The notes under the pieces: generated by a model
Databases searched by the model: none
Told to the model about the DNA's origin: nothing
Seen by the model: the letters and a program-made list of their open reading frames with translations, nothing else
Shown here: piece by piece, positions 211 to 17,913 of the stretch
How the letters are laid out: the number at the start of each line of letters is the position of its first letter
Position numbering within the stretch: position 1 is the first letter of the stretch
Program-made: the position numbers and the translations under genes
Source: Candidatus Hodarchaeota archaeon
GTDB lineage: Archaea; Asgardarchaeota; Heimdallarchaeia; Hodarchaeales; Hodarchaeaceae
Direction: 5' to 3'
Assembly (NCBI GenBank): GCA_016839665.1
Contig: JAEOTU010000172.1
Coordinates: 1-18,509 of the forward strand
DNA length: 18,509 nucleotides

Positions 211-262
211 TAGTTGGATAGAGAAGATGACATGGTATTAAAAGAGTTGTACAGGTGTTTTT

Positions 263-928: not shown

Positions 929-950
929 CTCTCATCTCATCAAATAGCTC

Positions 951-973
951 CTTCACGGTGAAGAGGGTTTTTT
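951..973 (+). terminator. Hairpin plus T-run after the DUF998-like gene
   Basis: CTTCACGGTGAAG (951-963) is a near-perfect palindrome that can form a 5-6 bp stem, followed by AGGG and six T residues (968-973). It lies 23 bases beyond the stop of the plus-strand membrane protein gene, where a transcript end is expected. It overlaps the last codons of the convergent surface-protein gene, so the two genes end tail to tail over this element. Termination itself is inferred. Confidence 0.5.
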
Positions 974-3900
974 CCACTTATGACTGAGAAAAAGGACCAG
1001 TAATATCGACACAAGCAAAAACAGTCCAAACGGAAGACGCCAATCTGGGTTTCCTACAGCAGTCGTTGCTGTAGTTGCAGGATTGTTGAATAGATCAAAA
1101 TCGCTGTGATGGTATTCGCGAGTCCAATATGGATTATATATTTGGTGAATAAGGTCATCATCTCCTTTAAACAGTTGCACAAGCTTAACCTGGAGATGAA
1201 AAGGGCTATCAAAGCCACTAAAAGGGCTATAAGAAAAGAAAGCAGCAGAAGGTACATAGACATAAATGTCATTAAACCCTTCTTCCAATAAATCTTGAAC
1301 AGAGAATGTAAATTCTTTGTATTCAGGGTTATCGACGGATAATTCCAACCGTACCGTATAAACCCCTTGTTGAAATACATCAACTCCCACGCTAACGAGA
1401 ATTTCTTCATATTTAGAATCAGAATCTAAATTGATTCCGTCATCCCAAAATTCGTCTCTAAGAAAGGCTCCTGGTCGGTCAAACTCAAGATAGCTATAAC
1501 TTTGTGTGGTATAATCGTACAACATTCGATCCAGCAAGTGACCTCCATGATCATAAATCCTGATATTTTCGACAATGTGATGTGAATTCTTGTCTAGCAA
1601 GTATAATGGGGCAGAATATACCAATATTGAAAGGTTGTTTAGGCCTTCCTCCCAATATTCATTGATTGATCCGTCTCTATGGAGTTCCCATTCAGACTCA
1701 TACCAATGAAAGTCATATGAGTATATGTCTGGTTGAGATACATCTACTTCGAAAATTACTGAAAGCGCATCAAATGTCCCATCCAGATCGGTGTCAACAC
1801 CATGATCCCAACTCTTACCAGTCAAAATTGCACTCGGAGGATCAAATTCTTCATATTGATACACACGCGTGAGGTGAGGTTGTCGAACCTGATCAATATG
1901 ATCTCCTTCAGAATCATAAATCGAAATTTCTTCAAAGATATAAGCAGTGTCAACCCTTAGCGAATAAGGTAGTGTTAGGTAAATTTCAAGCGATATATTT
2001 TGAACACCTTCATTCAAATCTCTATCAATCGATTCTCCGAAGTAAGAATCCCAGACTGGAACATAAGTCCTAATATTGAAATCAAAGGAAAATGGGCCAT
2101 CTTGGGTTACATTTACTTCTACTAAGACATCTAAAAAGTCAAACATTCCATCTCTGTCAATATCGGCCCCAACATCCCAGTATCGTCCTGTAAAAAACAC
2201 GATTGGAGGTCGAAATTCGGTATAGCGATAAAGACGTGTGATATAAGGGGAATTAACCCGATCAAGGGTATGCCAGTCAGAATCAAGAATCTCAATCTGT
2301 CTGATAAGGAAAGACGTATCTTTCCGAATCGAATAAAGTGAAGCTGCATCAAAGGACAACGTGATGTTATACTTTCCTGTATCCGAGTAAGGGGATAAAG
2401 GGGTTTCTACCCATTCCTCCCAAGGATTTTGGTCTAAATCAACAGAACGTAAAGCCAATCTGACTCTATATCGAGTAGTTTGAGTCACATTGATCTCTAC
2501 AGTGAAAGTTAATTCCTCAAACTGGTTGTCATCGTCAGAATTTATCCCATGATCCGAGTACTTCCCCGTGAAAAATGCACGAGGCGGGGGAAACATTTCA
2601 TAGCTATATTTCTGTGTAATATGGGATTTATCTGCAAAATCCATCAAATTACCATCGACATCTCGTAAAGTAATTTCCTTAAGGAGAAATGACGTATTTT
2701 CTCGTAAATGAAAGAAATCTTCTTCTGTAGTATCAAAGGAAAAGGGAATAATTAGAACTCCTTTTGGCAAATAACGAGAATAATCTCCCCATAGATTCCA
2801 ATCAGAATTGTTCAAACCAAATGGTATTATATGTATATCCATCTCATAGGATCCTGCTTTAGTTATATTTACTTCAACTTCAATTTTAAATTCCTCATAT
2901 ATTCCATCAGTGTTTGCATCAACTAGATAATCCCAGTTGTTTCCCGTTAAGAAGGCTGGAGGAGGATTAAATTCTTTATAGCTGTATTCTTGAGTTGTAT
3001 AAAGGGAACCACGCCAACTTTGACTATACTCTTCCTGATCACGAATTTGAAAATAAGTAATTATAAAAGATGTATTGTTTTTTAAAGAATAGAATGAGGT
3101 TGCATCCGCAAAAAAGGTAACGTTTTGAACACCTATCTTCAAGTGTTCCTCTGTCTCTGCTCCTTGATCCCAATGGTTTTGATCTGTATCAAGGGGATCA
3201 AAATTTAGGTTGGAATAATACAATCCTCTATTCCGAGTAACATTTACTTCAACACTTAGAGCAAGTTCCTCATATATTCCATCTGTATCAAGATCGACCC
3301 CCCAATCAAAAAATCTCCCAGTTAATTTCACTTGAGGAGGTTCAAACTCGCTAACTGGATATGAATCAGTGCTATAGGGAGTAGTCAGGAATTGATGGTC
3401 TTGGCCATAAAATTGTAATTGAACATAACTGACATTATACGGCCCGCTTAGACCCCAACTAATATAATTATGTAGTGAATAAGATATTTCAACTTCATTT
3501 CCATTAGGGGTTAAGAAACCATTCCAATGAGCAGTGAAATCGTTATTAGATCCAGGAAAAGGGGTAGAATCTTCCAGAAACAATTCAATCTCATAATGTC
3601 CTGGATCTTTGACTTCAACACCTAAGTTGAAGACAATCTCATCATAAAATTGATCTTCATTCGTATCAACAAGATAATCTGAAAAACCTACAATCGTTGC
3701 GGATGGAGGTTCAAAATCGCCATGATTATAGGATGTAGTGGTAATATATTGATGAGTAAAATTTATCTCATATCCAATCCACCACCACCATCCAGAATAA
3801 GTGAAGAGACCAACTTCAATAACATACGGGCCATCAGTCCCTCCTGCATTGATTGGTTGTCCCAAAAATGAAAGTTTAACAATTTTCCCAGAATCATATC

Positions 3901-4234
3901 TATTAAACTGTGAGGTACCGATCAGATTTTCATCTTTATCCTTTAGAATGCCATAAACTCCATCAAACTCTGTGAAATTAATCCATCCCAATTCCACAAT
4001 TAAGTGATCAAAGAAACCATTTTTATCTTCATCTTCAGGATAATCCCTCCAAGTATTGTTATCAGGTAATACATCTGTGCTTGTCTTAATTGAAAATTGT
4101 GGTGACTTTAGTTGATCGTTTAGGGGGTTTAAAAATCCCAATTCTGTCATATTCACTTGAACGAGATTTAAAAAGTCTCCGTGGATCAATCCGAAGAAAA
4201 TCATGACCATTAAGGTTAATCGTAATCGTTTCAT
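953..4234 (-). CDS. Large secreted, membrane-anchored surface protein with eight tandem DxDxDG modules
   Basis: About 1,093 residues. The N-terminus is basic then hydrophobic (MKRLRLTLMVMIFFGLIHG), a signal peptide or signal anchor. The C-terminus has one membrane helix (about 1068-1086) followed by a short basic tail, KWKKPSSP. Between them lie eight modules with a period of 121-126 residues. Each opens with an acidic loop like DLDTDGIYEE (near residues 70, 192, 316, 441, 567, 693, 816, 937). Alternating hydrophobic, strand-like sequence with VEVNVT-type strands follows, and each module ends in a hinge such as FEPP or FDPP (176, 299, 425, 550, 676, 799, 920). The acidic loops resemble dockerin/EF-hand-like calcium loops, and the strand pattern suggests an Ig-like fold; both are inference. 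Many N-x-S/T sequons suggest N-glycosylation. Numbering counts from an in-frame TTG at 4240; I prefer the ATG at 4234. I cannot name a family. Likely roles are adhesion or a cell-surface stalk. Confidence 0.82.
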   Translation of the reverse strand: MKRLRLTLMVMIFFGLIHGDFLNLVQVNMTELGFLNPLNDQLKSPQFSIKTSTDVLPDNNTWRDYPEDEDKNGFFDHLIVELGWINFTEFDGVYGILKDKDENLIGTSQFNRYDSGKIVKLSFLGQPINAGGTDGPYVIEVGLFTYSGWWWWIGYEINFTHQYITTTSYNHGDFEPPSATIVGFSDYLVDTNEDQFYDEIVFNLGVEVKDPGHYEIELFLEDSTPFPGSNNDFTAHWNGFLTPNGNEVEISYSLHNYISWGLSGPYNVSYVQLQFYGQDHQFLTTPYSTDSYPVSEFEPPQVKLTGRFFDWGVDLDTDGIYEELALSVEVNVTRNRGLYYSNLNFDPLDTDQNHWDQGAETEEHLKIGVQNVTFFADATSFYSLKNNTSFIITYFQIRDQEEYSQSWRGSLYTTQEYSYKEFNPPPAFLTGNNWDYLVDANTDGIYEEFKIEVEVNITKAGSYEMDIHIIPFGLNNSDWNLWGDYSRYLPKGVLIIPFSFDTTEEDFFHLRENTSFLLKEITLRDVDGNLMDFADKSHITQKYSYEMFPPPRAFFTGKYSDHGINSDDDNQFEELTFTVEINVTQTTRYRVRLALRSVDLDQNPWEEWVETPLSPYSDTGKYNITLSFDAASLYSIRKDTSFLIRQIEILDSDWHTLDRVNSPYITRLYRYTEFRPPIVFFTGRYWDVGADIDRDGMFDFLDVLVEVNVTQDGPFSFDFNIRTYVPVWDSYFGESIDRDLNEGVQNISLEIYLTLPYSLRVDTAYIFEEISIYDSEGDHIDQVRQPHLTRVYQYEEFDPPSAILTGKSWDHGVDTDLDGTFDALSVIFEVDVSQPDIYSYDFHWYESEWELHRDGSINEYWEEGLNNLSILVYSAPLYLLDKNSHHIVENIRIYDHGGHLLDRMLYDYTTQSYSYLEFDRPGAFLRDEFWDDGINLDSDSKYEEILVSVGVDVFQQGVYTVRLELSVDNPEYKEFTFSVQDLLEEGFNDIYVYVPSAAFFSYSPFSGFDSPFHLQVKLVQLFKGDDDLIHQIYNPYWTREYHHSDFDLFNNPATTATTAVGNPDWRLPFGLFLLVSILLVLFLSHKWKKPSSP

Positions 4235-4286
4235 TGTCAATGATAGGTGAATACCTGCTGCAATAGAAAAAGCTTTCTCAAGTTTG

Positions 4287-4296
4287 AAAATTATAG
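4287..4296 (-). promoter_or_regulatory. Possible TATA box for the surface-protein gene
   Basis: On the minus strand this AT-rich stretch reads CTATAATTTT. A start site about 26 bases downstream would leave a 5' leader of roughly 30 bases before the ATG at 4234. The 4241-4394 gap separates two divergent genes and must hold both promoters. No strong ribosome binding site precedes the surface-protein start. Confidence 0.3.
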
Positions 4297-4334
4297 CAGT
4301 TTAATGATTTTGGTTTAAAAAAGTATGAAGAAAG

Positions 4335-4346
4335 TAAATAAATTTT
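4335..4346 (+). promoter_or_regulatory. Possible TATA box for the carbamate kinase operon
   Basis: TAAATAAATTTT lies about 50-60 bases upstream of the carbamate kinase ATG. An archaeal start site ~26 bases further on would give a leader of about 25 bases that includes GAGGA at 4384-4388, a good ribosome binding site. Identified by eye only. Confidence 0.33.
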
Positions 4347-4394
4347 TGAATTTCCTTATCATTCTACCGATTTGCGTCAGATTGAGGAATCGAA

Positions 4395-5381
4395 ATGCTC
4401 AAGCCGTTGGTTGTAATTGCACTTGGCGGAAATGCCATGATTAAGGGGAAACAGAGGGGAACATTAGAGGAACAGATTGAGAATATTACAGAAACAGCTA
4501 AACAAATAATGAAGGTCATTCCAAAATACAGAGTAGTAATAACGCACGGAAATGGTCCTCAGGTGGGGAATCTTATGCTTCAGATGGAGGCAGGCAGTCA
4601 TCCCCCTTATAATCGTCCATCGTTAAAAATGGATATTTGTGGATCAATGACCCAGGGGCAGATAGGTTATCTTATCCAGAATATTCTCGGAAACCTACTG
4701 TGGACTGAAGGACCACCAAGCCGTCTTGATCCTACTGACAAGGTCAAAATCATAACAGTGGTGACCCAAGTCGTCGTATCAGAAGATGATCCTGCGTTTC
4801 AAAATCCAACAAAACCCGTAGGCCCATTTTATAATAAAGAACAAGCTGATAAAATCCAAGCCGAACATCCTGATTATGTGATAATTGAGGATGCAGGGCG
4901 AGGGTATCGAAGAGTTGTCCCTTCTCCTGATCCCATTGAGATACATGAGAAAGACCAAATTAATATACTGTTAGAAGGAGGATTTATTGTGATTGCTTCT
5001 GGTGGAGGAGGAATTCCCGTTGTGAAAAATCCTGAGGGCACAGTTAGGGGTGTGGAAGCAGTCATCGATAAAGACTTGGCTGGAGAACGTCTTGCAGTCG
5101 ATACCAATGCAGAAATTTTTGTTATCCTAACAGATACGGACAAAGTTTATCTGAATTTTAAGACCCCTGAAGCTAAAGGTATCGATAATATGACATTAAT
5201 CGAATTAGAACAGAATTTGGCAGAGGGGGCATTTGGTCAAAAATTAAAAGGTAGTATGGGCCCCAAACTGAAGGCTGCTATACGATTTTTGAAAGATGGT
5301 GGTAAAAAAGTTATTATTACAAGTCCCGAATTAGCAGCAGATGCTTTGGAAGGTAAAGCAGGAACAACAATTGTTCCATGA
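4395..5381 (+). CDS. Carbamate kinase (ArcC/YqeA family)
   Basis: Catalyses reversible phosphoryl transfer between carbamoyl phosphate plus ADP and carbamate plus ATP; in catabolic pathways it runs toward ATP. The 328 residues match the normal length. Family motifs are all present: ALGGNA (9-14), THGNGPQVG (50-58), KPVGPFY (140-146), the RRVVPSP segment (172-178), ASGGGGIPV (201-209), EAVIDKD (221-227), LTDTDKV (245-251), GSMGPK (286-291) and the terminal GTTI. It appears fully functional and cytosolic. GAGGA at 4384-4388 sits about six bases before the ATG. A carbamoyltransferase gene starts 18 bases after its stop, so the two are almost certainly one operon. This is the classic arrangement in which a carbamoylated compound is phosphorolysed and the carbamoyl phosphate is used to make ATP. 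There is no arginine deiminase or second carbamoyltransferase in the window, and the companion enzyme is not a standard OTCase, so YqeA-like use in ureide catabolism is more likely than the ADI pathway. Confidence 0.95.
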   Translation: MLKPLVVIALGGNAMIKGKQRGTLEEQIENITETAKQIMKVIPKYRVVITHGNGPQVGNLMLQMEAGSHPPYNRPSLKMDICGSMTQGQIGYLIQNILGNLLWTEGPPSRLDPTDKVKIITVVTQVVVSEDDPAFQNPTKPVGPFYNKEQADKIQAEHPDYVIIEDAGRGYRRVVPSPDPIEIHEKDQINILLEGGFIVIASGGGGIPVVKNPEGTVRGVEAVIDKDLAGERLAVDTNAEIFVILTDTDKVYLNFKTPEAKGIDNMTLIELEQNLAEGAFGQKLKGSMGPKLKAAIRFLKDGGKKVIITSPELAADALEGKAGTTIVP

Positions 5382-5399
5382 ATAAGGAGTTGAAAAAAA

Positions 5400-6449
5400 G
5401 TGAAATTTTCAGATTTATATGGACGAGATTTAATTTGCACTCAAGATTGGGCTAAACACGAACTTAGTTTGGTGCTAGACTTAGCTGGGAGAATGAAACG
5501 TGAACGTCTCGCATCAAAATATACTAACCTCTTGGCACACAAGACATTCTTTATGTTTTTCTATAATCCGAGTGTACGAACAAGACAGAGTTTTGAAGTT
5601 GCTGCCACAGAGCTAGGTGGTCATGCACAGTTTCTCGAACCAAAAGCTATGCGTTTAAAAACCGCAACAACAGCAGGTGAAACTGTTGAAGACGCAGCAC
5701 AAGTCATGTCTCGGTATGCGCATGGTCTTGGTATTCGAATGCTTGAGGATAAAGTTAGTGAATATGGCGAGGGCGAAGCTCTTCTTCGTGAGTATGCAAA
5801 ATGGGCAACTATTCCTATTATCTCAATGGCTCACGATAAATATCATCCGTGTCAAGGGTTAGCTGATGTCATGGGTTGGTCCGAATGGTTCAATAAAGGT
5901 ACCAAATATCCCCCTGATTGGCGAACCTTACAAGGGAAGAAATTACTTGTTACATGGGGTCATGGTGCTCTTGCTCGTTCTTGGTGTTCTGTTCAAGAGG
6001 CGATGTTAATCGGTTCTCGCTATGGAATGGATGTTACAGTTGCCTCTCCCGAAGGATTTGATCTAGATCCTCAAGTTACAAAATGGACTGAGGAAAATTG
6101 CAATAAAAATGATGCACAATTTGAAATTACCAATCACCTCACCAAAGGCTACGAGGATGCTCATGTGGTTTATTCTCGTCATTGGATGAGTCCTGACGCT
6201 TACCAAGATGGAGAATTTTTAAAGCAACAAGAGATCGAAAAAGCCCTAAAATACCCTGATTGGATTTGTGATTCGAAGAAAATGGCTTTGACGGACAATG
6301 CAATCTACACACATCCTATGCCAATAGATCGGGGACACGAAGTGACAGATGATGTTGCATCAGGGCCTAGATCCTGCATTTATGATGTTGCAGAAAATCG
6401 TCTGCATGTTCAAAAAGCCATTATGGCTCTCACTATGGCAGGAATATGA
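5400..6449 (+). CDS. Knotted-type carbamoyltransferase, YgeW/AOTCase-like, with altered HPMP motif
   Basis: A 349-residue aspartate/ornithine carbamoyltransferase-superfamily enzyme. The carbamoyl-phosphate site is intact: PSVRTR (57-62, the S-x-R-T-R motif) and HPCQGLAD (149-156). The N-terminus (CTQDWAKHEL, 13-22) and C-terminus (AENRLHVQKAIMA, 331-343) closely resemble acetyl-/succinyl-ornithine carbamoyltransferases. GMDVTVASPEGFDL (209-222) and P-I-D...EVTDDV (308-319) also recall E. coli YgeW. Both groups belong to the trefoil-knotted branch. The second-substrate motif, HCLP in OTCase, AOTCase and YgeW, reads HPMP (305-308), as in the HPLP of ATCases. The lysine that is carboxylated in AOTCase aligns with Glu314. 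Substrate is therefore uncertain. The GTG start is preceded by AAGGAG. Coupling to carbamate kinase argues for the catabolic direction, carbamoyl-X plus phosphate to X plus carbamoyl phosphate. An anabolic arginine role is the main alternative. Confidence 0.88.
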   Translation: MKFSDLYGRDLICTQDWAKHELSLVLDLAGRMKRERLASKYTNLLAHKTFFMFFYNPSVRTRQSFEVAATELGGHAQFLEPKAMRLKTATTAGETVEDAAQVMSRYAHGLGIRMLEDKVSEYGEGEALLREYAKWATIPIISMAHDKYHPCQGLADVMGWSEWFNKGTKYPPDWRTLQGKKLLVTWGHGALARSWCSVQEAMLIGSRYGMDVTVASPEGFDLDPQVTKWTEENCNKNDAQFEITNHLTKGYEDAHVVYSRHWMSPDAYQDGEFLKQQEIEKALKYPDWICDSKKMALTDNAIYTHPMPIDRGHEVTDDVASGPRSCIYDVAENRLHVQKAIMALTMAGI

Positions 6450-6513
6450 CTCTCATTTAAGAAACATGGAAAGAAGAAAGCTTAATTTCATTAAACCAAG
6501 TCAGGGAAGATTT

Positions 6514-7344
6514 TCAATATCCAAAGTGAGCTCTGGCTTTTTTAATCGCTTTTTCTACCATAGCAACATCTTCAGGGTAAAGATGCTCATTTTTCTTTTT
6601 TAGAACCTTTTCGGCGCGAGTCAGAAAGGCAAAATTCTTCGTCTTAATAGCTTCCAGTAAAAGTCTGACACTATCATAAAAATTATTCTCCACAACCGCG
6701 GAAGGGACACCAGAGCTTAAATTTACCATTGTTTGACGAGCAGTTTGCCATCCTTCCGCTATTAAATCGCAGAGAATGGCACATGCATAATTCGTTGCTG
6801 TATTGTCATAAAAATTTAATTCAAGGTGTTTGTTACCCGCTTCAATGTATTCGTGTTTTGAATTGCGAAAATGTTTTTTTGCGAGGTCTTCTGGCGATAC
6901 CTGGACAGCTTGTCTTTCAGGAGGTTTTTTCATGATTGGTCCGAATTTTTGTCTTTGTCGTAATTCAGAATGAATTTCACTGGCGAGTTCATCGTCAAAA
7001 AGTGATACTGGCGGTTGAGAACTAATTGGTGGTTGTGAGGAAACATTATTAGCAAATGGTGAAGGGGGAGGTGAAGGGAGATTCGGTGGAGGTGTGATGG
7101 CCTTTTCAGGTTGTTTTCTCGGAGGCCCTGAGAGTGGTGGAGGTGAAGAGAAGTTCATTAGAGTCTCAATATTTTTTTCAGATTGTTGTCGCGTACGCCC
7201 TTTAAAAACCTGCTTTTCTCTACCAGAAAGCGGTGGAGGTGTTTTTTGCTTTTCTTCCAGAATATTATCCAATTTTTTAATAAATGAAGGAGGTACGGGT
7301 AGTTCTTCTTCCTTCTTCTTTTTTTTCTTGAAAGGCCACGGCAA
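6514..7344 (-). CDS. Proline-rich linker protein with C-terminal helical domain, function unknown
   Basis: 276 residues from the TTG at 7344, which I prefer because AGAGG sits just upstream and the protein then begins MPWPF followed by KKKKKK; an ATG at 7398 would add 18 residues. Order along the protein: a W-P-F plus polylysine N-terminus (2-11) that could touch membrane or nucleic acid, then a short amphipathic helix (20-33). A low-complexity linker (about 35-120) follows, with four PPP runs at 36, 68, 85 and 92 and the repeat PPPLSG twice (36-41, 68-73). Last is a helical domain (about 150-276) with helices around 151-175, 180-206, 216-234, 237-252 and 257-274 that resembles TPR/SNAP-like helical hairpins only loosely. 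No signal peptide or membrane helix is seen, so it is cytosolic. It converges with the carbamoyltransferase gene. I recognise no family. Its proline-rich linker is compatible with binding a profilin or SH3-like partner, which is speculation. Confidence 0.72.
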   Translation of the reverse strand: MPWPFKKKKKKEEELPVPPSFIKKLDNILEEKQKTPPPLSGREKQVFKGRTRQQSEKNIETLMNFSSPPPLSGPPRKQPEKAITPPPNLPSPPPSPFANNVSSQPPISSQPPVSLFDDELASEIHSELRQRQKFGPIMKKPPERQAVQVSPEDLAKKHFRNSKHEYIEAGNKHLELNFYDNTATNYACAILCDLIAEGWQTARQTMVNLSSGVPSAVVENNFYDSVRLLLEAIKTKNFAFLTRAEKVLKKKNEHLYPEDVAMVEKAIKKARAHFGY

Positions 7345-7472
7345 TTTGATACCTCTCTGAAATTGGCAGAATACTCTAATTTCGAAGATTGAGAGCATTA
7401 TTATGCAATTATAAGTAGATGTATTTTGATATAAAATTGTAAAAATTAATTTAAAAAAGATTTTGAATTTTC

Positions 7473-7955
7473 CTAAAAAACAGAACCGAATTTACTCTCA
7501 TCCCAACTTTTTTGAAGAAAGTATTTTGCGAAATCAGTTAAAATGACTCGCTTGCTTGAGAAGAATAGTAAATGTCCTCCACATTTTGATTTGCAGTCGG
7601 AGGAACCAAAATTTGATATGATTGTAGCATTTTGAAACTCTTCTTTGAATTGTCTAAGAGCAGAACATTCAGTTACTTCAGAGCTTGTATTGTAATATGT
7701 ACTGATTATCTCAGTATCTACGTGGGTAGTAAGATAATCAATATGCCAAAAAATGTTCTTTTCTTTTTTCAAATGACGAAGAAGACGATTTCCAAGATTT
7801 GTTGCTGTTTTCCCTTTTGCGGAACCAAAATAAAGATAAAAACCAGGTTTAATTATCCATTTAAACCGATTAGTATTAATTCTAAGATGATTTTTTACTT
7901 CAAGGACTAGAACGTAGACACCCTGAAGATTTCTAAGCTGGTTCCAATTATCCAA
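7473..7955 (-). CDS. DUF123 family GIY-YIG-type (Uri-like) nuclease-fold protein
   Basis: 160 residues that match the DUF123 family, an archaeal and bacterial group related to GIY-YIG endonucleases. Visible landmarks are GVYVLVLEV (12-20, the GIY-like strand), GFYLYFGSAKG (38-48, the YIG-like strand and turn), NRLLRHLKKEKNIFWHIDYL (56-75), ECSALRQF (96-103) and a C-terminal GSSDCKSKCGGHLL (117-130) with paired cysteines and a histidine. The length is ordinary. Members are presumed DNA-binding nucleases, but a physiological role is not established. The start is a TTG (7953-7955) with no strong ribosome binding site; no better in-frame start precedes the conserved GVYVL. A TATA-like TTTAAATA lies about 35-42 bases upstream on this strand. 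The divergent neighbour is a transglutaminase-like gene sharing the same 92-base promoter region. Confidence 0.85.
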   Translation of the reverse strand: MDNWNQLRNLQGVYVLVLEVKNHLRINTNRFKWIIKPGFYLYFGSAKGKTATNLGNRLLRHLKKEKNIFWHIDYLTTHVDTEIISTYYNTSSEVTECSALRQFKEEFQNATIISNFGSSDCKSKCGGHLLFFSSKRVILTDFAKYFLQKSWDESKFGSVF

Positions 7956-7989
7956 TTAATATCAGCTCAATATTCATCTTTGAAAAGAT

Positions 7990-7997
7990 TATTTAAA
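7990..7997 (-). promoter_or_regulatory. Consensus-like archaeal TATA box in a divergent promoter
   Basis: On the minus strand the octamer is TTTAAATA, close to the archaeal TATA consensus. A start site about 26 bases on would give a ~10-base leader for the DUF123 gene. On the plus strand the same bases read TATTTAAA and sit about 50 bases before the transglutaminase-like ATG, so one nearly symmetrical box may serve both directions. Assigned by eye. Confidence 0.45.
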
Positions 7998-8047
7998 GGC
8001 CTTCTGATACAAAAGTCATCATAAAGGTCACTTAGAGGAAATTTCAG

Positions 8048-8899
8048 ATGGTAGCTTCCCAGGATGTTCATGGTTGGCAGATCCAGCATCATGAACGTCT
8101 TTTTTATCGAGCTAATTCTGGGTCTCCAACTATCATTTTAAAATTCTTTCATTATCCTGTATATCGCCAAACGGTTCAGATAAACCAATTTCCTTCTAAA
8201 TGTAAATTGCAGGTTAAAGGAAACAATTCATTTTTCCTCTTTAAAGAAAAAGTTCGCACAAAGGGCTCAATATCTTTGGATAGAACAATTTCAGTGTTTC
8301 CTACTCTTTTTCCCGTTAATTTAAAGGATGATTGGGGGAACATTTCAGAAATTCCTCAATCTCAAAGAACCAAATACCGGGAGAGTTCAAAATATTGGCC
8401 CATCCACTCTTCTTCCATTCAAAAAATTTCAGGACAAGATTGGTTTAATTTAGATGATCTTCGCCAGTGGGTGTTATCAGCAAGCCAATACATCAGAACA
8501 ACAATTAAACATCGTGAGAATCAAGAAGAAAGATTGGGAGCATATCAGGCTTTTCATCATGGAATAGGGGATTGTGATGAATTCACTGATCTCTTCATTA
8601 CACTCACTCGAATGCGTGAGATTCCTTGTAGACGATTGACAGGGTGTTATATTGCTAACAAAGGGTTATTAACCGAAAACCATGCGTGGGGAGAAGTCCT
8701 CACGCCTGAGTTGGGGTGGATCCCAATCGACATAGCATTAAACGACTTCGGACATAGCATCAATTATATCATCTTAAAGATAGAGGAATTCAATCCAGCT
8801 CTCCCCGATTACCATATACAAACAAAGCATACTGCTAATGTGCATTATCAATGGGAGAAACCTGATCCAGAAATCACACCAATTCTGTCTAAAAATTAA
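8048..8899 (+). CDS. Transglutaminase-like cysteine protease/amidase-fold protein
   Basis: 283 residues. The C-terminal half carries the transglutaminase core with the catalytic triad in order: Cys176 in GIGDCDEFTDLF (172-183), His212 in ENHAWGEVL (210-218) and Asp228 in GWIPIDIA (223-230). A preceding helix (SASQYIRTTIKHREN, 144-158) fits the usual start of the domain. The first ~130 residues are strand-like and unassigned. There is no signal peptide or membrane helix, so it acts in the cytosol unless exported by an unseen route. Transglutaminase-like archaeal proteins are usually thought to be proteases or amide-bond hydrolases rather than crosslinkers; the substrate is unknown. The ATG at 8048 has AGAGGA at 8033-8038. 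It ends one base before the convergent RNase HI gene. Confidence 0.85.
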   Translation: MVASQDVHGWQIQHHERLFYRANSGSPTIILKFFHYPVYRQTVQINQFPSKCKLQVKGNNSFFLFKEKVRTKGSISLDRTISVFPTLFPVNLKDDWGNISEIPQSQRTKYRESSKYWPIHSSSIQKISGQDWFNLDDLRQWVLSASQYIRTTIKHRENQEERLGAYQAFHHGIGDCDEFTDLFITLTRMREIPCRRLTGCYIANKGLLTENHAWGEVLTPELGWIPIDIALNDFGHSINYIILKIEEFNPALPDYHIQTKHTANVHYQWEKPDPEITPILSKN

Positions 8900-8900
8900 T

Positions 8901-9335
8901 CTATTTCTTCTTAAAGTAATCATTCAAACATTTGTTACATAGCTTATCAGCCATGGTTATCCATTGGTTATCTCGGGGAACATGTGTAAAACTAATTTTT
9001 TGGAAAGCTCTCTTCCGTTGGGTTACTTCCTGAAAAAATTCCAAAAGCTGAATATTTTTGACTTGATAGTCCCCATTAATCTGCTTTATGACTAGTTCAC
9101 TATCCGAAAGCACCTCTACAGCCCCTTGAGTATTCTTTTTTGCCTCTAATAAAGCTTTAATAATTGCTTGATATTCAGCTTGATTATTTGTTTGTTTTCC
9201 TATGAATTCATTCTTCTGAAAAACAGATTTTTCATCCATTACAAAAATAAAAGCAATAGCTGAAGGACCTGGATTTCCTCTTGATGCTCCATCAGCGTAG
9301 ATCTTGAGTTGTTTTTCCTCTGGAATTTTAAGCAT
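8901..9335 (-). CDS. rnhA: Ribonuclease HI
   Basis: A 144-residue type 1 RNase H that would cleave the RNA strand of RNA-DNA hybrids in a metal-dependent reaction. All four acidic catalytic positions are visible: Asp15 in YADGASRGNPG (13-23), Glu54 in NNQAEYQAI (50-58), Asp78 in SDSELVIKQING (77-88), and Asp130 in MADKL (128-132) after THVPRDNQ (117-124). Length is typical of the compact archaeal/bacterial form; there is no N-terminal hybrid-binding domain and no basic protrusion like that of E. coli. It lies 39 bases downstream of the hydantoinase-type gene on the same strand and may be cotranscribed with it. It meets the transglutaminase-like gene tail to tail with a one-base gap. Confidence 0.93.
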   Translation of the reverse strand: MLKIPEEKQLKIYADGASRGNPGPSAIAFIFVMDEKSVFQKNEFIGKQTNNQAEYQAIIKALLEAKKNTQGAVEVLSDSELVIKQINGDYQVKNIQLLEFFQEVTQRKRAFQKISFTHVPRDNQWITMADKLCNKCLNDYFKKK

Positions 9336-9374
9336 TTTATGCCGTTTTTCTCCCGTATCATTCTTTTTTCTTTC

Positions 9375-10775
9375 TTAATTAAGGCCATTCAACTGTGAGA
9401 TTGACCTTTTCACAAATTTTCCTTCATTTTGGGGTCCTATGAATTCTCCATTCTCACAAAGGATATGTCCACGAAGTATTGTCATAATAGGCCATCCCCT
9501 CACCTTCATATCCATAAAAGGATTCCAATCAATAGAGTAATGAAGAATTACAGGTGAAATAGTTTTTACTAGATTTGGATCAAAAATAACAATATCAGCA
9601 TCCGTTCCGACCATAAGACTTCCTTTTTGAGGGTAAAGACCAAATATGCTCGCTGGTCTAGTTGACATTAATGATATAAGCTGAGGATATGTTAATTTTT
9701 GTTTGTTAACCAGTAGATCATGCATCAGAGGTAAAGAGGTCTCTATTCCTGGAATGCCATTTAAAATTTGATGAAATGGCAGTTTACCATTTCCTTTGCT
9801 TGCTCGTGAGAATTCACAATGATCTGTTACTATCTGATCAATTGTACTGTCTTTTATTCTCCTCATTAAAGCCTGCTGGTCTTTCGCGTGACGTAGAGGT
9901 GGAGACATTAGGTTTAAATAGCCGTTTGAGCCCTTGTAGGCTCCTTCATTAAGCAATAAGTAATGAGGACATGTTTCTCCTGATACTTTTAGGCCGTGTT
10001 GTTTAGCATGGAATAAGAAATCACTCCCCTGTTTCGTAGTAATGTGAGCGAGGTGAAGTTTAACACCTGTTTTTTTAGCAAAGAGTAGGACTCTCTGGAT
10101 AGCTTCTTCTTCTGCAATATGGGGTCGTGAATGAGCATGAAAAATAGGTTCGGTCTTTCCCTCTTGAATCAGCTCGTCTCGATAATTTAGAACCATCGCA
10201 TCATTTTCACAGTGGCCCATGACCATCCCCCTGTATTTTCTAACCTCACGAAAAAAATGTAATAGTTCGGCATCATTAAGGTCAAGATTTCGCCAACTGT
10301 AAGTAGTAAAAAACTTAAAACTTGTTACTCCTTCAGAGATCAGAGTAGGAATTTCATCCGGATATTCCATATCGGTTTTTGAAACATGTAGACTATAATC
10401 AATAGCCACTTGTGGATCAGCATTCTTTTTCCGTTCATTAAAGTCATTTAATGGGGATTTTCCTCGTGTTTGGTCTGCAAAGTCAATGATTGTTGTGACC
10501 CCCCCACAAGCAGCGGCTTGAGTTCCAGAAGCAAAGGTATCGGTCGAGATAATCTTCCCTAAATCCTGTAATTGAAAATGGACATGTGGATCAACTATTC
10601 CAGGAAAAATTAACTTCTTATCAGCGTTAATAACACGAGCAGCATCTAAACTTTTATTCCCCTGATAAATGGCATCAATTTTTCCATCCTTGATTGTCAG
10701 GTTTGCTTGGTAACAACCAGTTATATCTACAAGTGTTCCATTCTTTATGATGAGATCCAAATACAATTCACCCAA
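9375..10775 (-). CDS. D-hydantoinase/dihydropyrimidinase-type cyclic amidohydrolase
   Basis: Hydrolyses the ring amide of a hydantoin, dihydropyrimidine or related cyclic ureide to an N-carbamoyl product. The protein has 466 residues. Binuclear metal ligands of the family are all present: DPHVH (62-66), the carboxylatable Lys154 in SFKFF (152-156), His188 in MGHCEN, His244 in HLAHIT and Asp318 in TDHCEF. Tyr159 just after the lysine loop and NGIPGIE (339-345) match the substrate-contact positions of D-hydantoinases. Allantoinase or a HyuA/YgeZ-type ring-opening enzyme cannot be excluded from sequence alone. The start is uncertain: TTG at 10775, or a TTG at 10760 that is better spaced from GGTGA. 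It diverges from an amidohydrolase gene across a 193-base region and is followed after 39 bases by RNase HI. Together with the carbamate kinase-carbamoyltransferase pair it suggests ureide catabolism. Confidence 0.9.
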   Translation of the reverse strand: MGELYLDLIIKNGTLVDITGCYQANLTIKDGKIDAIYQGNKSLDAARVINADKKLIFPGIVDPHVHFQLQDLGKIISTDTFASGTQAAACGGVTTIIDFADQTRGKSPLNDFNERKKNADPQVAIDYSLHVSKTDMEYPDEIPTLISEGVTSFKFFTTYSWRNLDLNDAELLHFFREVRKYRGMVMGHCENDAMVLNYRDELIQEGKTEPIFHAHSRPHIAEEEAIQRVLLFAKKTGVKLHLAHITTKQGSDFLFHAKQHGLKVSGETCPHYLLLNEGAYKGSNGYLNLMSPPLRHAKDQQALMRRIKDSTIDQIVTDHCEFSRASKGNGKLPFHQILNGIPGIETSLPLMHDLLVNKQKLTYPQLISLMSTRPASIFGLYPQKGSLMVGTDADIVIFDPNLVKTISPVILHYSIDWNPFMDMKVRGWPIMTILRGHILCENGEFIGPQNEGKFVKRSISQLNGLN

Positions 10776-10968
10776 TAAATAAGATGAAGCAGTATTAGCT
10801 TCATATATTTCTTAATATATTCAAATACCACTAGTGATGTTTGAAAAAGACGTGCTTATTTTTTATGTTTGTAGCTCTAACTTTTTCAATGTTTTCTTCT
10901 ATCTTGTCATTAAAGAATGCTGGTTCATTGCATAATCACTGAATATAATTTAAACGGTTGGTAGCGTA
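10776..10968. promoter_or_regulatory. Divergent promoter region between hydantoinase and amidohydrolase genes
   Basis: No gene fits in this AT-rich 193-base gap. Facing the hydantoinase on the minus strand is a TATA-like AATATATTAAG (about 10811-10821), placing a start site near 10785. Facing the amidohydrolase on the plus strand is ATATAATTTAAA (10943-10954), very close to its GTG start, which would imply a leaderless or very short leader. A perfect 7-base inverted repeat lies at 10784-10804. Joint control of the two hydrolases from this region is inferred from the divergent arrangement. Confidence 0.5.
10784..10804. repeat. Inverted repeat over the presumed hydantoinase start site
   Basis: ATGAAGC and GCTTCAT are exact inverted copies separated by seven bases (AGTATTA). 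The site is just downstream of the TATA-like box and 9-24 bases before the candidate hydantoinase start codons, where an operator or a 5'-leader hairpin would act. Perfect 7-base repeats of this sort are not rare in 18 kb, so position is the main argument. Confidence 0.45.
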
Positions 10969-12447
10969 GTGAAACACAAATTACTTAGAACTAAATTTCT
11001 CTTGCCAATATCTGATGAATTAGGACGGGAGACTCGAATTGTAGATGGTTTTATTTTCATAGAGGGACAATACATCAAAGAAGTTGGCAAGTATAATAAT
11101 CAACGAATTCACAATATTATTGATTCGTGTAGATCAGACCTTGAGATTATAGGAACTCCAACAGGAGAAATAACGGAAGATGATGAGATTCCCCAAATAA
11201 ATGGTGTAGCACTCCCTGGGTTTGTGAAAGGTCACGGTCATGATCATGAGTCCCCGATTATTGGTATTGCTAAAGATGTTCCATTGACGACTTGGTTAGA
11301 CTCAGCAGTGAATATGTACACAGGTTTTCTCCATACTGAAGAATCTAGCTTAACTAAGCGCTTTGGAAAGTCACCATATCTAATTACTTATCTTAAAGCA
11401 CGAATAGATGACCTTCAACATGGTATAACCACTGCTTTAGTTCATCATTGTAATTTTAACAAGTATCATGTAGATGAATTAATTGAAGCTAACCAAATTG
11501 TAGGGACAAAAATCATGATTGCGGTCGGATCTCAAGATCGCCATTATGACCCCCGAATATTAGACATCCCTGCTTCTATTGCCGTTAAAAGGCTTGATGA
11601 ATTATATAAAAAATATAAAGGTGTTCAAAATATCAAAATTATTCCAGGTCCAGATCAATTCTTTTCAAATGGACCAGAATTACTAAGAGTGTTAAAAACT
11701 TGGGCTCAAGAACACGATACATTAATTCATATTCATAGCAGTGAAGAGCCAGCGACCACCAAATGGTTCATAGAAGAGTACGGGATGACTCCTATAGAAT
11801 ACGGACATTCGATTGATTTTCTTGATAAAGATACATTTGTTGGACATCAGGTTCATAATACGGAAAATGATCTAACCATCTTAGCAAATACTAAGACAAA
11901 AGTAGTTCATAATCCCCTTGCTAACACCATTCTTGGTTCTGGTATGCCTCCGCTCCAAAAATTTAAGGAAAGAGGGATTGAGTTCGCAATTTCTACTGAT
12001 GGATCTGGTAGCGCAGATAATCAAAATATTATTAATGCGGCTCGTGTTGCAGCCCAATATCAAAAGGCCCTGCACCAAGATGCGACATTGATGACCGCTC
12101 AAGATGTTCTTGAACGAATCACAATCATTCCTTCTGGTTTCTTGGGTTTTAATACGGGTTCATTAGAGACAGGAAAACTGGCAGATATTGTTATTGTGGA
12201 TCTCTCTGCACCAAATTTAACACCAACACGTGTGGATAACGTTGTTGAAAATTTAATTTGGGCTGCAAATGGAAACGAAATTCAGTATGTAATCTCAAAT
12301 GGAGAACTTCTGATTGACAACTATACTTTTACATCTTTGAAGGTTCAAGACGTTCTTCAGGAAGTTCAAGACCTTTCAGAAATGTTTTTCGAATATAAGA
12401 GTCTCTTAACTCCCAAAAAGACGACAGGAGTTCGTGATAAGACATAA
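10969..12447 (+). CDS. ATZ/TRZ/SsnA-type metal-dependent amidohydrolase
   Basis: A 492-residue amidohydrolase-superfamily enzyme of the mononuclear deaminase/chlorohydrolase branch, which includes SsnA, TrzN, guanine deaminase and S-adenosylhomocysteine deaminase. Likely metal and catalytic residues: His89 and His91 in PGFVKGHGHDHE (83-94), His256 and Glu259 in HIHSSEE (254-260), His293 in GHQVHN (292-297), and Asp344 in STDGSGSADNQN (342-353), with NPLANT (315-320) before it. The C-terminal composite beta-domain returns with GKLADIVIVD (402-411). The HxH motif is unusual in carrying a third histidine (H-G-H-D-H-E) and in having KG where NA/NT is common, so substrate assignment is open. The GTG start has only a weak ribosome site; no better start is in frame. 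It diverges from the hydantoinase gene, which favours a shared ureide or purine substrate pathway. Deamination of a purine or pterin is the main alternative. Confidence 0.85.
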   Translation: MKHKLLRTKFLLPISDELGRETRIVDGFIFIEGQYIKEVGKYNNQRIHNIIDSCRSDLEIIGTPTGEITEDDEIPQINGVALPGFVKGHGHDHESPIIGIAKDVPLTTWLDSAVNMYTGFLHTEESSLTKRFGKSPYLITYLKARIDDLQHGITTALVHHCNFNKYHVDELIEANQIVGTKIMIAVGSQDRHYDPRILDIPASIAVKRLDELYKKYKGVQNIKIIPGPDQFFSNGPELLRVLKTWAQEHDTLIHIHSSEEPATTKWFIEEYGMTPIEYGHSIDFLDKDTFVGHQVHNTENDLTILANTKTKVVHNPLANTILGSGMPPLQKFKERGIEFAISTDGSGSADNQNIINAARVAAQYQKALHQDATLMTAQDVLERITIIPSGFLGFNTGSLETGKLADIVIVDLSAPNLTPTRVDNVVENLIWAANGNEIQYVISNGELLIDNYTFTSLKVQDVLQEVQDLSEMFFEYKSLLTPKKTTGVRDKT

Positions 12448-12450
12448 CCT

Positions 12451-12465
12451 ACTTTTTTATCTTTA
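12451..12465 (+). terminator. T-rich transcript end after the amidohydrolase gene
   Basis: A run of six T residues (12453-12458) followed by another short T-rich stretch and A6 comes directly after the amidohydrolase stop. Archaeal RNA polymerase can terminate at U-rich tracts without a strong hairpin. A new promoter-like element begins at 12476, so a boundary is expected here. Weak evidence. Confidence 0.3.
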
Positions 12466-12475
12466 AAAAATGAGG

Positions 12476-12524
12476 ATAATGTTTATTTCCATTTACAATT
12501 CTAAAAGTTCACTCGCTAGGATGA
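12476..12524 (+). promoter_or_regulatory. Promoter-leader element of the TPR gene, shared with nadB
   Basis: ATAATGTTTATTTC (12476-12489), then 27 bases, then TAGGATGA (12517-12524). The same two blocks with exactly 27 bases between them lie upstream of nadB (14384-14432), differing at one position in the first block. The first block looks TATA-like and the second lies where a start site or ribosome binding site would be. Ten bases after the second block is ATG immediately followed by TAA (12534-12539), at about the place of the nadB start codon. The TPR protein itself begins further on, at 12566. Confidence 0.5.
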
Positions 12525-12565
12525 GGATTCCCTATGTAATACGAGCAGGTGGCTAATGAAACGAA

Positions 12566-14332
12566 ATGACAAAAATATGTTTAAAAAAACTGTTCGAGGA
12601 AAGGCAGTATCATGAAATATTAGAGTTGGTAACAAGGTTGGAAGACCAGGGAGAACTAACAAGCTTATCCCTTATCACTCAGGTTGATCATGCTTACTAT
12701 AAAAGTCGGGCGCTGGAGCGACTAGGAAAATACAAAGAGGCTCTGCTAAATGCAACACGTATTCGCGATGATCTAGTCCCTCCAGATGAAAGAGTTTCCA
12801 ATCTCAAGCTGTTGATTGGTCGAATTTATGCCTTAATCCAGCTGGGTCGGTACGATGAGGCCCTTATGGACAGTAGAGAAGGAGAAACAGTTGTAGAATC
12901 GTTGACAGATACTGAACAAGACACGGGGATGTATTGGATTGCTTCTTTATATAATGTAGAAGCAGATATCTACTTCCGTAAGGGTGAACGGAATATTGCA
13001 CTTGACTATTACAAGCGAAGTTTAACTTTATTTGAGAAAATAGATAATCCACGGGACATTGCAAGGACGTTATACCTCATTGGTGAGTGTTATGATTGGA
13101 AGGAGCTGAATATCGCACTGGATTATTACAAGCGCGCTTTAATGTTGTATGAAAAGTTAGATGATTCACTAGGCGTCGCAGATTCAATACTAAGTATTGG
13201 ATACACCTATTTTTGCAAAAATGAACTAGTAACTGCCTTGAATTATTACCAGCGCGCATTAAATCTGTACGAGAAGACAGGTCATTCTAAAGGCACTGCA
13301 GTTACTTTAATTGTCATTGGTGAAGTCTATAGATCTAAAGGTGAACTGGACACTGCTTTGGAATATTTTCAAAGGACCCAAATCTTAGCTGAAGCTATAG
13401 GCGATTCTTGGAACATTGCCAATTCTTCAAACCAAATTGGAATTATATATAATATTAGAGGTGAACTGGACACTGCTCTGAAGTTTTTTCTACGAGCTTT
13501 AACCTTGTTTGAAAAATTAGGCGATCTTGGTACAATTGCTTGGTCATTAAGCAACATGGGACACGTCTATTATAGTAAAGGTGAGCTGGATTATGCCTTG
13601 GAGAATTTCTTGCGCGCTTTATCCTTAACTGAAAAGCTTGGTAGAGATCTTCCCATATCAGAATACCTTTTTTATATTATTATCATTTTATTAGACCTTC
13701 AGGATCAGGAACAGGCACAGATATACCTTTCACGTCTGCAGGCGCTTCATGACCGTAATCCTGAGAAAATAATTCAACACCAATTCCAACTAGCACGAGC
13801 TCTGGTCTTGAAGCAAAGCAAGCGGATAGTAGATAAAGCTCAGGCTCAAAGAATTTTGAGTGAAATGGTTGCTGGAAAACAAATTAGTTTTGATCTTGCA
13901 GTTCTGGCTACAACCCATCTCTGTGAACTATTACTGGTTGAATTGAAAGCATTTGGTGAACCTGAAGTATTGAAAGAAGCTAAAATCTTAGTACAGGATC
14001 TATATGTTCTCGCTCGAGACCAACAGTCGTTTTCACTCACCGTAAAAGCCTTACTTTTGCGAGCCAAATTTGCAATCATTGAAGGTGACCTCCAACAAGC
14101 CCAAGAATACCTTGACCAATCCATGAGAATTACTGGAGAAAAAAAAATGGGTTTAATGGCTCAAAGAGTCAAAAATGAACAAAAACTTTTAGAAACAGAG
14201 CTTAGTAAGTGGCAAGAACTCATCCGTAGGAACGCGCCCTTAGAGGAACGACTCGAACAATCGAAGTTGGAAGAATACGTCAAGGAAGCCCGTAAAGTTG
14301 TTGGTTCGTTTAATAGCAGAAAGAATCCTTGA
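12566..14332 (+). CDS. Tetratricopeptide-repeat protein
   Basis: 588 residues built from helical repeats. Five or six TPR units with an exact 40-residue period run from about 123 to 359. They are recognisable by phrases such as LDTALEYFQRTQILAEAIGD (261-280) and LDTALKFFLRALTLFEKLGD (301-320) with an IG-x-(I/V)-Y helix start. More divergent helical hairpins occupy 1-115 and 365-525, and a charged, probably coiled-coil tail covers about 525-580. There is no signal peptide or membrane helix. TPR arrays are protein-protein scaffolds, and the partner is unknown; similar 40-residue arrays are numerous in Asgard archaea. The start is the first possible in-frame codon, since a TGA lies three codons upstream (12557); CAGGTGG at 12546-12552 may be its ribosome site. 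Adjacent repeats share DNA-level identity, which points to recent repeat duplication. Confidence 0.88.
   Translation: MTKICLKKLFEERQYHEILELVTRLEDQGELTSLSLITQVDHAYYKSRALERLGKYKEALLNATRIRDDLVPPDERVSNLKLLIGRIYALIQLGRYDEALMDSREGETVVESLTDTEQDTGMYWIASLYNVEADIYFRKGERNIALDYYKRSLTLFEKIDNPRDIARTLYLIGECYDWKELNIALDYYKRALMLYEKLDDSLGVADSILSIGYTYFCKNELVTALNYYQRALNLYEKTGHSKGTAVTLIVIGEVYRSKGELDTALEYFQRTQILAEAIGDSWNIANSSNQIGIIYNIRGELDTALKFFLRALTLFEKLGDLGTIAWSLSNMGHVYYSKGELDYALENFLRALSLTEKLGRDLPISEYLFYIIIILLDLQDQEQAQIYLSRLQALHDRNPEKIIQHQFQLARALVLKQSKRIVDKAQAQRILSEMVAGKQISFDLAVLATTHLCELLLVELKAFGEPEVLKEAKILVQDLYVLARDQQSFSLTVKALLLRAKFAIIEGDLQQAQEYLDQSMRITGEKKMGLMAQRVKNEQKLLETELSKWQELIRRNAPLEERLEQSKLEEYVKEARKVVGSFNSRKNP
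13339..13477 (+). repeat. 120-base tandem repeat period within the TPR gene
   Basis: The 19-base string AGGTGAACTGGACACTGCT at 13339-13357 recurs exactly at 13459-13477, one TPR unit (120 bases) later. A more diverged copy begins near 13579. Identity at silent positions indicates duplication of whole repeat units rather than convergent protein sequence. Confidence 0.75.
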
Positions 14333-14340
14333 TTAAGCCG

Positions 14341-14364
14341 CTCTTTTCTAGAAGAGAGATTTTT
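14341..14364 (+). terminator. Hairpin plus T-run terminator after the TPR gene
   Basis: CTCTTTT (14341-14347) pairs with AAGAGAG (14352-14358) around a CTAG loop with one U-G wobble, and ATTTTT follows. It begins eight bases after the TPR stop and just before the nadB promoter-like element, so it marks a transcription-unit boundary. Confidence 0.6.
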
Positions 14365-14383
14365 ATTTCCTCCAAAAATAAGA

Positions 14384-14432
14384 ATAATGTGTATTTCTTG
14401 GAGTTTTGTTAACACTTCCTACTTTAGGATGA
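14384..14432 (+). promoter_or_regulatory. Promoter-leader element of nadB
   Basis: ATAATGTGTATTTC (14384-14397) and TAGGATGA (14425-14432) with 27 bases between them, the same arrangement as upstream of the TPR gene. Here AGGATGA also sits about eight bases before the nadB ATG and can serve as a ribosome binding site. Confidence 0.5.
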
Positions 14433-14439
14433 AGTTTCT

Positions 14440-16056: not shown

Positions 16057-16139
16057 TTCAGGAATTCAAATTTCCACCAAAAAATAAATAGATGAGAGTT
16101 GAATATGGGTTGATAACCTACTTCTCTTGAGGAAAACAT

Positions 16140-16319: not shown

Positions 16320-16398
16320 GCGATTTGTAGTGCTTTATTTTCCCCTAATTTTCTGATAATTGAGCATGTTAGAATTAAGGAAGAACCAGTATCAGAAA

Positions 16399-16406
16399 TT
16401 ATTTAA
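16399..16406 (+). promoter_or_regulatory. TATA-like box consistent with a leaderless radical SAM transcript
   Basis: TTATTTAA is centred about 28 bases before the ATG at 16431, so an archaeal start site would fall at or next to the start codon. The bases before the ATG (TGTAATCCCTTCTT) contain no purine-rich ribosome binding site. Both facts fit a leaderless mRNA. Confidence 0.42.
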
Positions 16407-16430
16407 TCAAATATATTGTAATCCCTTCTT

Positions 16431-17879: not shown

Positions 17880-17913
17880 AATGAGCTTAATTTGATCCTC
17901 TTAGCTTTTGTTG

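Follow-up and report, generated by a model that had tools for sequence, protein, structure and literature searches.

The DNA analysed here, referred to as the window, is a stretch of 18,509 nucleotides from a Candidatus Hodarchaeota archaeon (assembly GCA_016839665.1, contig JAEOTU010000172.1, positions 1 to 18,509 of the forward strand), probably the entire contig. We propose that it contains one half of a Hodarchaeal locus, loose in its packing, that serves to break down a ureide with conservation of energy. The window encodes a carbamate kinase (CK), a transcarbamylase (CT-A), a hydantoinase-type cyclic amidohydrolase (HYD) and a further amidohydrolase, and in related genomes the locus continues into a second transcarbamylase (CT-B) and a homologue of SsnA. 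Our leading interpretation, held tentatively and at somewhat less than even confidence, is a partly dispersed archaeal pathway of phosphorolytic ureide catabolism, probably purine-derived, in which two transcarbamylases feed one kinase. At the centre of the locus stands CT-A, which its sequence places in a distinct, uncharacterised transcarbamylase subfamily. The features of the locus in the window are as follows.

4395..5381, plus strand: carbamate kinase (CK); intact open reading frame (ORF); 376 bits with TIGR00746, cut-off 358; proposed ATP formation from carbamoyl phosphate and ADP.
5400..6449, plus strand: transcarbamylase CT-A, with an HPMP motif and in a separate subfamily; intact ORF; proposed ureido-group phosphorolysis.
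6514..7398, minus strand: conserved hypothetical protein adjoining CT-A; no Pfam match; homologues in the same place in genomes G001, G003, G004, G007 and G011.
9375..10775, minus strand: hydantoinase-type cyclic amidohydrolase (HYD); intact ORF; 417 bits with the D-hydantoinase/dihydropyrimidinase model TIGR02033, cut-off 393; proposed opening of a cyclic ureide, with a carbamoyl amino acid as product.
10776..10968, no strand: divergent intergenic region between HYD and the amidohydrolase, 193 bp.
10969..12447, plus strand: amidohydrolase of TRZ/ATZ type, divergent from HYD; intact ORF; 138 bits with PF01979.

An original prediction, made from the letters of this DNA, had named the four enzyme genes; all four ORFs are intact, and the carbamate kinase and hydantoinase-type labels were borne out by the model scores listed above. 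The kinase and transferase genes are paired as predicted, 18 bp apart, with AAGGAG preceding the GTG start. The two hydrolase genes had been said to diverge from a common promoter region: the divergence is real, but no conserved promoter element was visible in an alignment of four intergenic regions. The supposed archaeal origin was also supported, the best CT-A relative among the matches listed (89% identical) being that of Candidatus Hodarchaeum mangrovi.

We identified CT-A as a member of the aspartate/ornithine transcarbamylase superfamily; it matches 16 curated models and reaches the cut-off of none. The best model was N-acetylornithine carbamoyltransferase (AOTCase, NF003384; 228.6 bits, cut-off 288), and two YgeW models gave 110 and 108 bits with cut-offs of 453 and 500 (TIGR03316: 107.9 with a cut-off of 500). 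CT-A forms a separate clade with support of 100/100 in a transcarbamylase tree in which YgeW, ArgI and AOTCase were flagged as long branches and a row labelled OTC (L014) is really CT-B; this clade is firm, the order of the remaining groups is not. The Ser, Arg and Thr of the SxRT motif, the His, Pro and Gln of HPxQ and the carbamoyl phosphate-binding Arg are invariant columns of an alignment of 45 rows, the first of which is the window protein. We additionally compared 61 CT-A sequences, those of 81 loci (window included) with a called reading frame of 321-371 residues, the rest being dropped. The Ser, the Arg, the carbamoyl phosphate-binding Arg and the His are present in all 61, and all 61 have HPMP where the superfamily has HxLP, a motif for which the definition in the available part of PMC4581275 allows "some variations".

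The substrate-site positions of CT-A differ from those of both YgeW and AOTCase. The equivalents of K270 and Q160 of YgeW are Arg and Ala in 61/61 sequences, and those of E144 and K252 of AOTCase are Ala and Arg, again in 61/61. Of the two AOTCase loop prolines, the first is Ala or Ser in 61/61 and the second is a residue other than proline in all of the rows listed, 59 of the 61; the stretch corresponding to the proline-rich loop of knotted transcarbamylases is itself present in the alignment. The predicted "knotted" character of the transferase is plausible, the nearest solved fold being that of the knotted AOTCase, while the loop lacks the AOTCase prolines. CT-A was rejected as YgeW, the identity first suggested for it, on scores below the model cut-offs and replaced substrate residues, and it was rejected as AOTCase on the same two kinds of evidence. 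Ten of 120 relatives listed bear the names Chloroflexota or Anaerolineae and are 75-78% identical to the window CT-A, and the databases name CT-A-type proteins "ornithine" or "N-acetylornithine carbamoyltransferase".

The second transcarbamylase, CT-B (40-42% identical), lies upstream of CK in related genomes, outside the window. It keeps the YgeW/AOTCase-type Lys in 38/38 sequences, and at the Gln160 position it has Glu (35) or Leu (3), never Gln. Three CT-B proteins were scanned with the AOTCase model, of which the one from locus L007 passes the cut-off, at 301 bits, and two fail. YgeW proper was over cut-off in only one of 17 genomes tested (2 archaeal, 15 bacterial), so that CT-B and CT-A seem to stand in for it. 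In one archaeon (L005, 39-6930) CT-B directly precedes an aspartate carbamoyltransferase gene, followed by further genes, not scanned, that look like pyrimidine biosynthesis.

We investigated the distribution of the locus in a sample of 14 genomes of the order Hodarchaeales, which includes the complete genome CP070695 (G001). CT-A was identified in ten of the 14 (split over two contigs in G006) and CT-B in nine of those ten. Window-type hydantoinases (69-93% identity) are found in exactly the ten CT-A genomes, the other four having distant ones of at most 36%. Co-occurrence in related genomes had been fixed beforehand as a check on the prediction, and CT-A and the hydantoinase do share the same genomes; the ten may be one lineage, and would then represent one pattern and not ten independent events. 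G005 is a close relative (CT-A 94%, hydantoinase 93% identity), and the hydantoinase match in G008 stops at residue 401, with one stop.

Gene order was read in 11 contig stretches of the ten genomes (G011 over 60 kb only), and wherever contigs reach it is kept: the amidohydrolase and HYD divergent, then CT-A and CK, then CT-B, then the SsnA homologue. The whole span from amidohydrolase to SsnA was read in one contig only in G001 and G003 (22 and 38 kb), the other stretches being consistent parts of it. We identified SsnA homologues in eight of the ten genomes, by profile in G001, G002, G003 and G008 and by BLAST within the stretches in G005, G006, G007 and G009. CT-B and the SsnA homologue share a contig in seven of these eight, 0.9-11.4 kb apart, and lie on different contigs in G008. 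In G004, where the contig ends at CK, the profile found no SsnA except a 92-bit partial match elsewhere. Four genomes (G003, G006, G007 and G008) carry an MFS-type gene in the interval from CT-B to CK; in G003, whose copy is the one that was scanned, other genes share this interval. A pyridoxal-phosphate (PLP) enzyme is encoded beside SsnA in G001 and G005, and in G001 its score exceeds the cut-off of a threonine synthase model by 0.7 bit.

Two further observations concern the neighbours of CT-B and SsnA. Phospholipase D-domain and AhpC/TSA-type proteins recur beside the SsnA homologue in Hodarchaeales (G001, 4844574-4846082; G006 contig C103, 8967-12704). In G003 (contig C93, 41914-50252; L110) the interval between CT-B and SsnA encodes a PreA-type dehydrogenase, a second dihydropyrimidinase, a carbamoylputrescine-amidase-like enzyme (239 bits, cut-off 410), an aminotransferase and a methylmalonate-semialdehyde-type dehydrogenase, a run that is likely to serve reductive pyrimidine degradation in this one Hodarchaeal genome.

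Outside the order, we examined the loci obtained in a genome scan with the CT-A alignment, which took the best 80 of 151 confirmed relatives; counts from it describe close relatives of the window protein and not the family. Five loci are archaeal (named Hodarchaeum, Hodarchaeota or Heimdallarchaeota) and 75 stand under bacterial names. With gene profiles built from the loci themselves, the 75 bacterial loci were found to encode CK (65), CT-B (50), a threonine-synthase-like PLP enzyme (33), a second PLP enzyme of about 490 amino acids with weak CysK similarity (19), YgeY (15), and SsnA (6), YgfK, Xdh and hydantoinase (4 each). CK follows less than 600 bp downstream of CT-A on the same strand in 58 of the 69 loci with room for it, and CT-B lies less than 600 bp upstream in 35 of 61. 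Two loci (L054 and L064) have the row PLP4-CT-B-CT-A-CK-hydantoinase, and four (L055, L056, L066 and L072) have YgfK and Xdh beside the transcarbamylases and CK, to which L055 and L056 add SsnA. In the genomes of L055 and L066 (G019 and G020) YgfK is over cut-off and YgeY is not; Xdh-type genes are present, and the SsnA-like genes score below cut-off. In L007 a GntR regulator and a PnrA/Bmp-like ABC uptake system precede CT-B, CT-A and CK. The threonine-synthase-like enzyme of L015 passes two threonine synthase models; as a guess, either bacterial PLP enzyme could replace YgeX.

For the hydantoinase, a tree of 29 rows (of which L128, translated in the wrong frame and on a very long branch, is to be ignored) places HYD in a clade of its own, outside the HyuA clade and the PreA-paired dihydropyrimidinase clade and without a settled place among them. 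The second dihydropyrimidinase of G003 groups with the PreA-paired enzyme, whereas window-type HYD does not. Hydantoinase matches at E 1e-80 were found in 29 of the 50 bacterial genomes searched (out of 75), at 35-44% identity, which is not proof of orthology.

The divergent amidohydrolase had been called SsnA-like in the original prediction, and this label failed: two SsnA models return 115 and 107 bits with cut-offs of 444 and 455 (TIGR03314: 107 with a cut-off of 455), and identity to two SsnA-like proteins is only 23-25%. We therefore rejected it as SsnA, and its sequence marks it as a family of its own. Relatives outside the Hodarchaeales-type sequences are 57-63% identical among the matches listed, some of them named Eremiobacterota, Riflebacteria or Aureabacteria, and no characterised close member of the family was found. 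It was not found in the 75 bacterial loci themselves, the rest of those genomes not having been searched for it. The SsnA-like gene sits at the locus in relatives, beyond the span of the window; the "SsnA" of the prediction is a different paralogue.

The closest published system is the reductive urate route of E. coli and Clostridia, which comprises XdhD-YgfM, YgfK, SsnA, HyuA, YgeW, YqeA, YgeY and YgeX. As described in the available parts of PMC12507026 and PMC12990295, ureidomethyl-hydantoin is converted by HyuA, through ring opening, to 2,3-diureidopropionate; of its two ureido groups one is phosphorolysed by YgeW and one hydrolysed by YgeY, in an order that is disputed, and YgeX leads to pyruvate. 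For the Hodarchaeal locus the analysis establishes gene content, conserved order, co-occurrence and divergence of the substrate-site motifs, while we infer substrates, reaction direction and ATP yield as follows. HYD would open the ring of a hydantoin or dihydropyrimidine-like compound, giving an acid with one or more ureido groups. CT-B, with its YgeW/AOTCase-type Lys and AOTCase-type Glu, would phosphorolyse the alpha (2-)ureido group, and CT-A, with Arg for that Lys and Ala for that Glu, would phosphorolyse the beta (3-)ureido group. Both would release carbamoyl phosphate, from which the linked CK would make ATP, CO2 and NH3. The likeliest substrate line would be the reductive purine (urate) route via ureidomethyl-hydantoin and 2,3-diureidopropionate, in which phosphorolysis by CT-A would replace the hydrolysis by YgeY of E. 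coli and yield two ATP per ring, not one. The archaeal route may begin with a ureide taken up from outside, or it may rely on a reductase of a kind not searched for. A division of work between two different transcarbamylases would bear on the open question of which ureido group goes first, as posed in the accessible text of PMC12990295.

A more far-reaching version, which taken whole we regard as doubtful, is that CT-A is a new catabolic transcarbamylase class acting on the beta-ureido group of albizziin or a similar acid, that together with CT-B and one CK it allows Hodarchaeales and many uncultured bacteria to obtain two ATP from a purine-derived ureide anaerobically, and that CT-A was probably acquired from Chloroflexota-like bacteria, as the CT-A tree suggests.

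Compared with the reductive urate pathway, the Hodarchaeal locus has a similar linkage of hydantoinase, SsnA homologue, carbamate kinase and transcarbamylase, with carbamoyl phosphate as the proposed energy carrier. It differs in its archaeal host, in its spread over 22 and 38 kb in the two genomes read through, in having two transcarbamylases of which neither is over the YgeW cut-off, and in its lack of a YgeX match and, over cut-off, of YgfK and, in half of the CT-A archaea, of YgeY. With YgeW (YTCase, TIGR03316), CT-A shares the superfamily and a loop stretch at the position of the proline-rich loop of the knotted group, and CT-B shares the substrate Lys and HCLP; in contrast, CT-A has HPMP for HCLP, besides the two substrate residues replaced, and is without the long N- and C-terminal extensions. 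From AOTCase, CT-A differs in its score and in the residues equivalent to E144 and K252, and no argG over cut-off was found in the order. UGTCase of Rubrobacter, in the part of PMC4016543 available, resembles the role proposed for CT-A in the catabolic phosphorolysis of a purine-derived ureide next to a carbamate kinase; it is, however, a pseudo-ATCase in a uricase/allantoinase cluster, and CT-A falls away from ATCase in a tree that lacks UGTCase. UacY of Clostridioides difficile (PMC12507026) likewise offers another way to take off one of the ureido groups of this route, but as a hydrolase, where CT-A would be phosphorolytic. The word archaea is absent from the main text of that paper, and the review PMC13219045 uses one of the names of the pathway's intermediates once. 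No publication was found on Asgard purine degradation, Heimdallarchaeia carbamate kinase, Hodarchaeales arginine biosynthesis or the combination of carbamate kinase, hydantoinase and carbamoyltransferase in Chloroflexi in a literature search whose coverage excluded preprints and most subscription papers.

Of the energy-conserving ureide/purine module first predicted, carbamoyl phosphorolysis feeding the kinase, with its link to a purine or ureide gene set, is supported by context outside the window; the YgeW and SsnA labels failed, and of the partners sought in related genomes YgeX gave no match and YgfK was nowhere over cut-off in the order. A number of results weigh against the pathway that we propose. 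YgeX gave no match at E 1e-20 in 29 genomes, the controls being over cut-off in 1/14, with E. coli among the two that gave a match. YgfK was over cut-off in 0/14 genomes of the order, and in 3/6 bacterial CT-A genomes. YgeY, tested in 20 genomes, was over cut-off in G001, G002, G004, G005, G006, G010 and G015-G017 and not in G003, G007-G009, G011-G014 and G019-G021; it is over cut-off in 5/10 CT-A archaea and 3/6 bacteria tested, was not seen in the archaeal stretches read, and CT-A is no clean replacement for it. Xanthine dehydrogenase (XDH) was also among the partners to be sought, and XDH-family genes (PF20256) do occur in all ten CT-A archaea; none was seen in the locus stretches read, and the smallest distance known between such a gene and the amidohydrolase is about 30 kb, in G001. 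The SsnA homologues of G001, G002, G003 and G008 score 350-357 bits, under the cut-off of 455, and neither CT-B nor SsnA was seen on the window contig. Hodarchaeal HYD stands outside the HyuA clade. Of the PLP enzymes that might take the place of YgeX, the L015 type and that of G001 both pass models for threonine synthase and may be nothing more than that. Both 10-kb flanks are available for 23 bacterial loci; SsnA, YgfK, Xdh or YgeY occurs in 12 of them, and the other 11 lack all four. The weakest point is the reductase in archaea: no ring reductase was identified among the types sought (YgfK and PreA/PydA-type; F420 luciferase-type enzymes were not searched for), a PreA/PydA-type reductase being over cut-off in one of 14 genomes of the order (G003, one of the ten CT-A archaea). 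The enzymatic activities proposed, finally, are drawn from sequence and gene context.

That one PreA-type enzyme also bears on pyrimidine catabolism, an unlikely reading that is nonetheless the strongest of the alternatives, in which HYD would be a dihydropyrimidinase, CT-A a catabolic beta-alanine transcarbamylase phosphorolysing N-carbamoyl-beta-alanine, and CK the source of ATP. HYD passes a model named for dihydropyrimidinase, PreA was over cut-off in 6/15 bacterial genomes tested, the run between CT-B and SsnA in G003 has the PreA-type dehydrogenase, second dihydropyrimidinase and carbamoylputrescine-amidase-like enzyme, and such a transcarbamylase is named as possible but unproven in the available part of PMC4581275. 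Yet PreA is over cut-off in only one of the ten CT-A archaea, and that genome keeps a separate dihydropyrimidinase, unlike window-type HYD, that groups with the PreA-paired one; nor would pyrimidine catabolism leave a role for the CT-B, SsnA, YgfK or Xdh of the same clusters.

A general salvage of hydantoins and N-carbamoyl amino acids, to which we give slightly less weight, would have HYD and the amidohydrolase take assorted cyclic ureides and the two transcarbamylases different N-carbamoyl amino acids, without a purine link. The breadth of the hydantoinase family, the rarity of YgfK and PreA in the order and the MFS-type gene between CT-B and CK in four genomes are consistent with it, while the retention of the SsnA homologue beside CT-B, and YgfK with Xdh beside CT-A in four bacterial loci, two of them also with SsnA, speak against it.

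Carbamate kinases and transcarbamylases are reversible, so the locus might run in the biosynthetic direction, a kinase-like enzyme making carbamoyl phosphate from ammonia and CO2 and CT-A and CT-B building N-carbamoyl compounds. Anabolic CK-like enzymes are mentioned in the abstract of PMC6022934; the hydrolytic ring-opening enzymes, and the YgeY and purine genes among the bacterial neighbours, point to breakdown, and we consider this direction improbable. A neighbourhood without a shared pathway, in which the kinase-transferase operon just happens to lie close to the hydrolase pair, is a shade less probable again: 3 kb of unrelated genes separate the pairs, several of them also conserved in place, but the co-occurrence in 10/14 genomes is exact, though perhaps of one lineage, and HYD directly follows CT-B-CT-A-CK in two bacterial loci. 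Least probable of all is arginine biosynthesis with CT-A or CT-B as an N-acetyl- or N-succinylornithine transcarbamylase, the acetyl-/succinyl-citrulline alternative raised with the original prediction: AOTCase is the best NCBIfam and fold match of CT-A and one of the three CT-B proteins scanned passes its cut-off, but we rejected it because argG is over cut-off in 0/14 genomes of the order, where G006 gave a single hit of 21 bits, and in 13/14 controls, making citrulline-based arginine synthesis unlikely there for either transcarbamylase, and because the AOTCase residues are missing in every CT-A, while seven bacterial loci have a further OTC-type gene and the only one of their genomes searched for argG (G016, of L033) has it.

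We additionally noted other genes in the window. Three genes hold their positions in the interval that separates CT-A from the hydantoinase (6514-8899); they encode a lysine-rich unknown protein, a DUF123 protein and a transglutaminase-like protein, and homologues of each were seen in four or five of the ten genomes whose stretches were read. A few genes off the locus (14440-16056) lies an L-aspartate oxidase (NadB, 695 bits), of which a 79% identical copy is found near the locus in G001.

If the proposed pathway is correct, it would add energy-yielding catabolism of ureides, probably from purines, to the Asgard archaea, which among archaea are the closest to eukaryotes. A strongly conserved protein would also gain a function, and its present name of "ornithine" or "N-acetylornithine carbamoyltransferase" would be corrected.

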